Under the pieces are notes generated by a model. That model made no database searches, had not been told where the DNA came from, and was given only the letters and a program-made list of their open reading frames with translations. The position numbers were made by a program, and so were the translations under genes. Shown piece by piece: positions 58,872 to 60,790 of a stretch of 64,000 nt of DNA. Source of the stretch: Nitrospirota bacterium (GTDB taxonomy: Bacteria; Nitrospirota; Thermodesulfovibrionia; Thermodesulfovibrionales; UBA9159); the NCBI GenBank assembly GCA_021790195.1, contig JAJYIF010000009.1, positions 62,001 to 126,000 on the forward strand, given 5' to 3'. The stretch's first letter is position 1. Each line of letters opens with the position of its first letter.

Positions 58872-59543
58872 ATGACAGAAGAACCGCTATTAATGGACAT
58901 TATTGTCAACCCCCATGTTGTGCCTCATTTCGTTTCTTATGCCTTTCTTACATCCGCGATTTTGATCGGCGTTGCCCTTTCGATAAGGGGCTCTCTCGCC
59001 CTTGTGCCGAGAGGCCTTCAGAATTTTGTTGAAGTGTTGGTGGAGGCACTCCATAATCTGGCCGAAGAGAATATAGGGCATCATTGGGGAGATTACTTTT
59101 TCCCTCTCATAGGCACCATAGGCCTTTACATTCTTATCAACAATTTTATGGGGCTTATTCCGGGCTTTGATGCGCCTACGAGCAATATCAACTGTACCGC
59201 ATCGATGGCAGTCCCTGTTTTTCTTGCTACCCATTATTACGGCGTTAAGGTGCATGGGGGAAAGTACATTAAGCACTTCCTTGGCCCGGTGATTTGGCTG
59301 GCGCCTATGATGTTTATAATCGAATTTATCGGTCATCTCGTCAGACCGGTTACACTTTCCGTAAGGCTTTTCGGCAACATGATAGCTAAGCATATGATCT
59401 TGTTCGCTCTTGCCATGATGGTGCCGGCCATAATACCCGTTGCGATACTCGGTCTTGGCGTTCTCGTAAGCCTGATTCAGGCGTTCGTTTTTGTGCTTCT
59501 CACCTCGCTCTATCTTGCAGGTGCGGTCGAAGAGGCACATTAA
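58872..59543 (+). CDS. atpB: ATP synthase F0 subunit a
   Basis: 223 residues, five or six helices. Forms the ion half-channels beside the c ring. The essential Arg is in RPVTLSVRLFGNMIAKHMI, and LGLGVLVSLIQAFVFVLLTS carries the conserved Gln. AGGAGG precedes the ATG. Only atpB and atpE are here; the remaining F0F1 genes must be elsewhere, a split arrangement also seen in other deep-branching bacteria. Confidence 0.96.
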   Translation: MTEEPLLMDIIVNPHVVPHFVSYAFLTSAILIGVALSIRGSLALVPRGLQNFVEVLVEALHNLAEENIGHHWGDYFFPLIGTIGLYILINNFMGLIPGFDAPTSNINCTASMAVPVFLATHYYGVKVHGGKYIKHFLGPVIWLAPMMFIIEFIGHLVRPVTLSVRLFGNMIAKHMILFALAMMVPAIIPVAILGLGVLVSLIQAFVFVLLTSLYLAGAVEEAH

Positions 59544-59571
59544 ATAGAACCCGTTATTAAGGTCTTTGACC

Positions 59572-59612
59572 TTAGGAGGAATCCACCGACTTTGTCGGTG
59601 GATTCCTCCTAA
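59572..59612 (+). promoter_or_regulatory. Perfect 19-bp hairpin between atpB and atpE
   Basis: TTAGGAGGAATCCACCGAC (59572-59590) pairs base for base with GTCGGTGGATTCCTCCTAA (59594-59612) over a TTT loop. No T run follows, so it is not a standard terminator. It contains an AGGAGG core but is not the ribosome-binding site of atpE, which is GGAAAGGAGG at 59627-59636. Confidence 0.9.
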
Positions 59613-59644
59613 TTGAAATATATCGGGAAAGGAGGAAATCAACA

Positions 59645-60001
59645 ATGAGAAGAGTTGTGGCTTTATTGGTTCTTGCCTTAGCGATGTTCTGGGCGTTTGC
59701 TCCTCTGGCGCTGGCTGAAGAAGCCGCTGCAGCGTCTCCAGCCGCCACCGGCTCAAAAATATACTACTATGCCTTTGCTGCACTTGGATGCGGCCTTGCT
59801 ATAGGTCTTGCCGCTCTCGGTACAGGCATCGGCCAGGGTATCGGTCTGAGCAAGGCGTGTGAAGGCGTTGCGAGGAACCCGGGCGTTTCGGGAAAGATCA
59901 CGACGACCCTGATTATCGGTCTCGCAATGATCGAATCTCTCGCGATTTACGCGCTCGTTGTCGTGCTTATCATACTTTTCGTTAATCCTTTCAAACTTTA
60001 A
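59645..60001 (+). CDS. atpE: ATP synthase F0 subunit c with extra N-terminal hydrophobic segment
   Basis: 118 residues; the usual c subunit has 75-90. The extra N-terminal part (1-35) reads like a signal sequence ([20 protein letters not shown], then LALAEE). The hairpin of two helices follows: [20 protein letters not shown] and a second helix with the ion-binding Glu97 ([14 protein letters not shown]). Gln64, Glu97, Ser98 and Tyr102 match the sodium-binding set of the Ilyobacter c ring, but Met95 and Leu99 replace Val and Thr. NPFKL ends the protein. Confidence 0.95.
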
Positions 60002-60013
60002 TACTCGATATGA

Positions 60014-60035
60014 GGGGGCGGCTCATCCGTCCCCC
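60014..60035 (+). terminator. GC-rich hairpin after atpE
   Basis: GGGGGCGG (60014-60021) pairs with CCGTCCCCC (60027-60035), one bulged T, 5-nt loop. The following TTATCC is not a proper T run, so it may stabilise the mRNA end rather than terminate. Confidence 0.5.
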
Positions 60036-60079
60036 TTATCCAAAAACTTACCGTATCAAAACCGAAATAGTTCGCGTCC

Positions 60080-60144: not shown

Positions 60145-60390
60145 ATGCCGGTTTCGCTGATAACGGTTAAAGGACAGACGACGGTGCCGAAAAAAATAAG
60201 GGACCATCTTAAGCTTCATCCCGGAGATAAAGTCGACTTTGTCATTAAGGAGAACGGGAAGGTAGTTCTAGAGCCCGCAACGCTGGATGTGAAGGAGCTT
60301 GAGGGTATACTGCAAAGGCCTGGCATGAGGATCATCTCGACAGAAGAGATGAAAGGCTCGATCCGGAAGCGATTCAGAAAGAAGTCATAG
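60145..60390 (+). CDS. vapB: AbrB/VapB-type antitoxin
   Basis: 81 residues. The N-terminal swapped-hairpin AbrB domain (LITVKGQTTVPKKIRDHLKL then HPGDKVDFVIKENGKVVLEP) binds DNA; the C-terminal tail with basic end (KGSIRKRFRKKS) would wrap the toxin. AAAGGAG precedes the ATG. It is 1 bp from vapC. Expected to repress its own promoter through the palindrome at 60100-60117. Confidence 0.9.
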   Translation: MPVSLITVKGQTTVPKKIRDHLKLHPGDKVDFVIKENGKVVLEPATLDVKELEGILQRPGMRIISTEEMKGSIRKRFRKKS

Positions 60391-60391
60391 C

Positions 60392-60790
60392 TTGAAAGGG
60401 CTCGATACAAATGTGCTTGTTCGTTATCTTGTTAAAGACGACGAAAAACAGGCAGAGAAAGCTTTCACTTATATAAAGCGAATAAGCTCCTCCGGTGAGT
60501 TGTTATTTATAAGCAGTATCGTACTGTGCGAACTCGTTTGGGTCCTGGAGTCGGCATATGAATATAAAAGGACTGACATTGCCGATGTTCTCGAAAAGAT
60601 TCTGATGATAAAACAGTTTGAGATAGACTCAAAAGATGTCGTGCGACAGGCTGTTCGCGATTATCGCAACGGGAGAGGCGATATCGCGGACTATCTTATA
60701 GGCAGAATCAATCACGTTAAAGGCTGCGACAAGACAGCCACCTTCGACCATTCTTTAAAGAATAGCGCCTTCTTTTCAGTCCTTGATTGA
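60392..60790 (+). CDS. vapC: PIN-domain toxin VapC
   Basis: 132 residues from a TTG at 60392 (read as Met: KGLDTNVLVRYLVKDDEKQA). The PIN ribonuclease acidic residues are in place: Asp5, Glu47 (LCELVWVLE), Asp97/Asp100 (GRGDIADYLIG) and Asp119 (TATFDH). VapC toxins cleave tRNA or rRNA. The weak TTG start would hold the toxin below the antitoxin level. All key residues are intact, so it is probably functional. Confidence 0.9.
   Translation: MKGLDTNVLVRYLVKDDEKQAEKAFTYIKRISSSGELLFISSIVLCELVWVLESAYEYKRTDIADVLEKILMIKQFEIDSKDVVRQAVRDYRNGRGDIADYLIGRINHVKGCDKTATFDHSLKNSAFFSVLD

Follow-up and report, generated by a model that had tools for sequence, protein, structure and literature searches.

In the window, the whole 64,000-nucleotide stretch of DNA analysed here, the gap between the ATP synthase genes atpB and atpE contains a perfect 19-bp hairpin (Table 1), located exactly where the original prediction had placed it. 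The two arms, each 19 nt in length, were 100% complementary and enclosed a 3-nt TTT loop; the 5' arm contained AGGAGGAA, and the 3' arm contained its complement, TTCCTCCT. The atpE start codon lay 32 nt downstream of the hairpin's 3' edge; on the 5' side, the hairpin was adjoined by a smaller one, five pairs of which were present in the predicted fold. A T run was absent on either side of the 19-bp hairpin, whose tail read TTGAAATATA. Our scan called no promoter-like or terminator-like site in the atpB-atpE gap, and the window contained no Rfam match above the gathering score. Directly downstream of atpE, positions 60145-60790 encode a MazE/AbrB-like antitoxin-domain protein and a PIN-domain protein, which resemble a VapBC pair.

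Table 1. Features of the atpB-atpE region (positions in the window)
Feature	Position	Strand	Basis
atpB, ATP synthase F0 subunit a	58872..59543	+	PF00119, E 4.3e-54
Insert of ~71 nt, lineage-specific, directly 3' of atpB stop (edges uncertain by several nt)	59544..59614	+	Comparison with six same-family genomes
Small 6-bp hairpin, AAGGTC-TTT-GACCTT	59559..59573	+	Read from sequence
Perfect 19-bp hairpin	arms 59572-59590 and 59594-59612	+	Inverted-repeat search and RNA fold
Ancestral gap kept, with AGGAGG ribosome-binding block of atpE	59615..59644	+	Aligns with whole gap of relatives
atpE, ATP synthase F0 subunit c	59645..60001	+	PF00137, E 1.1e-19
Hairpin without T run just after atpE	60013..60037	+	Conserved in family

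The claim that this structure lies far beyond chance held up well. As RNA, the 41-nt hairpin alone had a predicted folding energy of -34.3 kcal/mol (z -10), and it was the sole perfect hairpin in the window with arms of at least 10 nt and a loop of 3-12 nt. Arms reached at most 10 nt in first-order Markov controls for the window and at most 13 nt in 2,560,386 bases of second-order Markov sequence. A sample of 853,460 bases from the same genome (the window and 40 further stretches, together roughly a quarter of the total) contained 11 perfect hairpins with arms of 15-20 nt, the atp hairpin included, and all 11 sequences were different. Such structures thus arise and persist in this genome, and the atp hairpin, which is beyond chance, is nevertheless not unique in kind. 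By crude gene calls, with spurious antisense ORFs set aside for two hairpins, four of the 11 were in convergent gaps, four in codirectional gaps (again counting the atp one), and three inside ORFs. In smaller samples from two relatives, hairpins with arms of at least 15 nt numbered zero in 163,597 bases (G005) and two in 160,385 bases (G006). In its own genome, the atp gap came fourth when 149 codirectional gaps 50-200 nt long were ranked on per-base folding energy. Elsewhere in the sample, an operon gap (L048 4381-4415) carried a 15-bp perfect hairpin that ended 27 nt before the downstream gene, and the loop and stem edge of this hairpin, ACCTCCC, were complementary to GGGAGGT of that gene. 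The hairpins CCCCTCCTTGGTTAAGGAGGGG and CCCCTCCTAAAATAGGAGGGG occurred as a pair at two sites (L049 15712-15811 and L052 5500-5560). An assembly error is a possible source of the atp hairpin.

Comparison with 60 relatives, six from the same family and none from the same genus, placed the hairpin in an evolutionary setting. An atpB match was found in all 61 genomes, the window's own included, and the atpB-atpE gap could be examined in 60 of them, 57 by a script that assigned the atpE start heuristically by binding-site score and three by eye; G050 was left out, as its contig ends within or just after atpB. The gap measured 20-35 nt in 53 of the 60 genomes, nearly all with a AAAGGAGG-like block, and 28-30 nt in all six same-family genomes, as against 101 nt in the window. 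When the window was aligned with five of the family genomes, its last 30 nt before atpE corresponded to the ancestral gap, which left 71 extra nt; in the sixth (G002), the gap was 28 nt and the insert was absent. By these alignments, the hairpin is the core of an insertion of ~71 nt that is specific to this lineage, lies directly after the atpB stop codon, and did not displace the ribosome-binding block that atpE has from its ancestral gap. Conservation of the hairpin, which the original prediction had proposed to look for in relatives, was not found: the structure was absent from all six family genomes and from nearly the whole order, and the 60 gaps compared rule out a conserved ATP synthase element. 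The same comparison told against the reason first offered for the hairpin, namely higher expression of atpE (subunit c) than of atpB (subunit a), as a 20-35 nt gap with no hairpin is the rule in all six genomes of the family and across most of the order. Because these relatives presumably face the same stoichiometry, a general subunit-stoichiometry device appears unlikely and is not supported.

The gap exceeded 35 nt in seven genomes (47 nt in G007, 49 in G058, 58 in G024, 75 in G009, 101 in the window, 140 in G016, and 145 in G012). Those of G024 and G012 were partly structured and unlike each other, despite the common genus of the two. Perfect hairpin arms of at least 12 nt were present in the atpB-atpE gap of just two of the 57 script-resolved genomes, the window's and G016, a rate not clearly above the own-genome background, where three of 244 codirectional gaps, the atp one included, had such arms. 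The G016 gap (L008 2197-2290) held a dispersed two-hairpin element unrelated to the window hairpin; its genome contained 11 exact copies of the first hairpin, six of them with the second hairpin ~62-64 nt away. The insertion in G016 is independent of that in the window. An IS200-type element carried by the window's own genome has ends similar to the G016 hairpin sequences, and from this likeness we infer that the two elements are akin.

By the original prediction, a common genomic repeat unrelated to the atp genes would have told against it. Whole-genome BLAST and pattern searches of the own genome recovered the site itself and no second copy of the insert, and an arm search with three mismatches gave 11 hits, two of them the site itself, compared to seven for a reversed control; the hairpin is single-copy, and these self matches and near-control counts rule out a dispersed repeat. 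Beyond the self match, a 76-nt insert query against 176 genomes of the order yielded two matches of 19-21 nt (G059 and G086, E 0.004-0.006), which we judged to be chance on their E-values; both, by eye, appear to lie in coding sequence. Two contig matches to the core palindrome, one from a Clostridia MAG and one from an Arthrobacter, had unrelated flanks and were set aside. The outer-stem pattern was absent from the order's 175 other genomes, and the inner stem, CCACCGAC-N-GTCGGTGG with a 3-nt loop, occurred in five of them, always with a loop different from that of the window; for comparison, the reversed pattern occurred in 3/176 genomes and the core of a second own-genome hairpin in 0/175 others. 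The five genomes (L159, L160, L161, L162, and L163) had a common hairpin, CCACCGAC-AAG-GTCGGTGG, and flanking sequence in common. In L159 and L162, an ORF for an IS200-type transposase (Y1_Tnp) was just upstream of this hairpin, and L160 and L163 look like versions of the hairpin element that lack the transposase gene.

With matches this near the control level, an origin from a mobile element is possible but unproven. That the insert descends, as a remnant or a derivative, from a small mobile palindrome of IS200/IS605-derived or REP-like type, we regard as a tentative proposal, less probable than not and compatible with the tolerated insertion that we favour below. It would fit the inner stem in five other genomes, preceded by Y1_Tnp in two and with common flanks in the other three, as well as the dispersed element in the same gap of G016 and the Y1 transposases and hairpin-ended IS200-type element of the own genome. 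Against it, the match is confined to the inner 8 bp and the loops differ, the reversed control pattern also occurred, in three genomes against the observed five, and the core of another hairpin in none, and the hairpin is present in a single copy, with no GTAG or CGTC tag or complement found in the atpB-atpE gap. Being single-copy in the whole genome and untagged, the hairpin does not look like a REP element, and the insert lacks the layout of a miniature element with two end hairpins around an interior, as its 6-bp and 19-bp hairpins abut.

Could the hairpin instead act on the atpBE message? Lacking a T run and not called by the scan, it does not look like an intrinsic terminator, a GC-rich hairpin followed by a T run. 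The original prediction had reasoned that a hairpin without a T run is unlikely to be a normal terminator; the missing T run and the strong predicted RNA fold of the gap do support a structure on the message other than a canonical terminator, but the argument is weaker here than assumed, because a T run is likewise missing from the conserved hairpin just after atpE and this genome seems to have few canonical terminators. The post-atpE hairpin begins 11 nt after the stop codon, was kept in 6/6 family genomes (the window's own, G001, G003, G004, G005, and G006, with G002 left out of the count), showed double changes in three of eight pairs, and may mark the end of the operon transcript. Hairpins with T-rich tails were found at 8 of 343 gene ends (null 0-1). 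This scarcity and the conserved post-atpE hairpin leave some room for the 19-bp hairpin as a partial terminator or attenuator without a U tract, a reading that we nonetheless find very improbable: it would reduce the output of atpE, whose product is the subunit required in higher copy number; the scan placed no promoter-like site between the two genes; and 8 of 14 strong gene-end hairpins had a T-rich tail, which indicates that T tails are in use. A stabilising or processing role is possible but rather unlikely. Here, RNase III would cut the duplex, or the hairpin would block exonucleases, and the atpB and atpE segments would decay differently. Nineteen perfect pairs make a plausible RNase III substrate, and RNase III is encoded in the genome; the hairpin stops 32 nt short of atpE, and the 15-bp hairpin of the other operon 27 nt short of its downstream gene; and there is precedent in the intercistronic hairpin of the puf operon, reportedly described by Klug in 1987. 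Conservation gives this role no support, as the hairpin is missing from every one of the six family genomes and from almost the entire order. Within the library searched, we found no paper on a bacterial atpB-atpE hairpin. Least probable of all, to the point of being far-fetched, is a translation switch: if the 5' arm were removed, as by cleavage within the stem, the 3' arm would become available to mask the atpE binding site, and the hairpin would thereby sense cleavage and turn atpE off. The 3' arm (TTCCTCCT) is complementary to both the 5' arm and the atpE binding site (AGGAGGAA), but 1.2% of random 19-mers resemble the binding block as closely as the 5' arm does, a likeness that we noticed post hoc, and with the 3' arm released the computed accessibility of the site fell from 0.22 to 0.11 only (model predictions of low absolute value, as are all accessibility figures here).

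We consider it probable that the insert is tolerated: it would form its own fold within the atpBE mRNA and matter little apart from a local influence on mRNA stability. The ~71 nt that entered the short atpB-atpE gap in this lineage may have come from a small mobile palindrome, as its remnant or a one-off copy, or from a fold-back (template-switch) replication error. In the message, the insert is predicted to pair with itself and to leave the atpE binding site about as accessible as it would be without the insert; the computed chance that the site is unpaired was 0.22 with the insert and 0.16 with the insert removed. A three-way junction appeared when the gap was folded alone and was lost in a longer context. 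A hairpin that ends 32 nt upstream of a start codon is outside the usual initiation footprint. Transcription probably reads through the hairpin, given that no T run is present and no promoter-like site was called in the gap, and such read-through would allow the insert to be tolerated. Some observations weigh against a tolerated insertion: neither arm has acquired a substitution, so the duplex must be very young or maintained, and the sample contained three further codirectional-gap hairpins, with which a function could be shared.

As the locus shows, a strong hairpin can enter a tight and conserved operon gap while the downstream ribosome-binding block is kept. The case also counsels caution, as a striking hairpin beside ATP synthase genes should not be read as a stoichiometry device before relatives are checked. 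Were a processing role true, the locus would offer a recently acquired and testable case of how such control evolves.

Like intercistronic hairpins of the puf type, the window hairpin is a strong structure between two operon genes whose proteins are needed in unequal amounts; unlike them, it occurs in one lineage only, the gene that needs more product is downstream, and differential decay is hypothetical here. The GTAG/CGTC-tagged REP palindromes treated in PMC3733652 are likewise short, intergenic, and closed by a short loop, and stems of the GTAG family are mostly 6-9 bp there, whereas the window hairpin is single-copy and untagged, with a perfect 19-bp stem. Sequence in common with IS200/IS605-type end hairpins was found, at near-control level, for elements of the five other genomes; the IS200-type ends of the own genome differ from the insert. 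Compared with CCACCGAC-AAG-GTCGGTGG (in this order), the window hairpin has another loop, other flanks, 11 more bp, and no adjoining transposase, but its innermost 8 bp and its loop length of 3 nt agree with these IS200-type ends.
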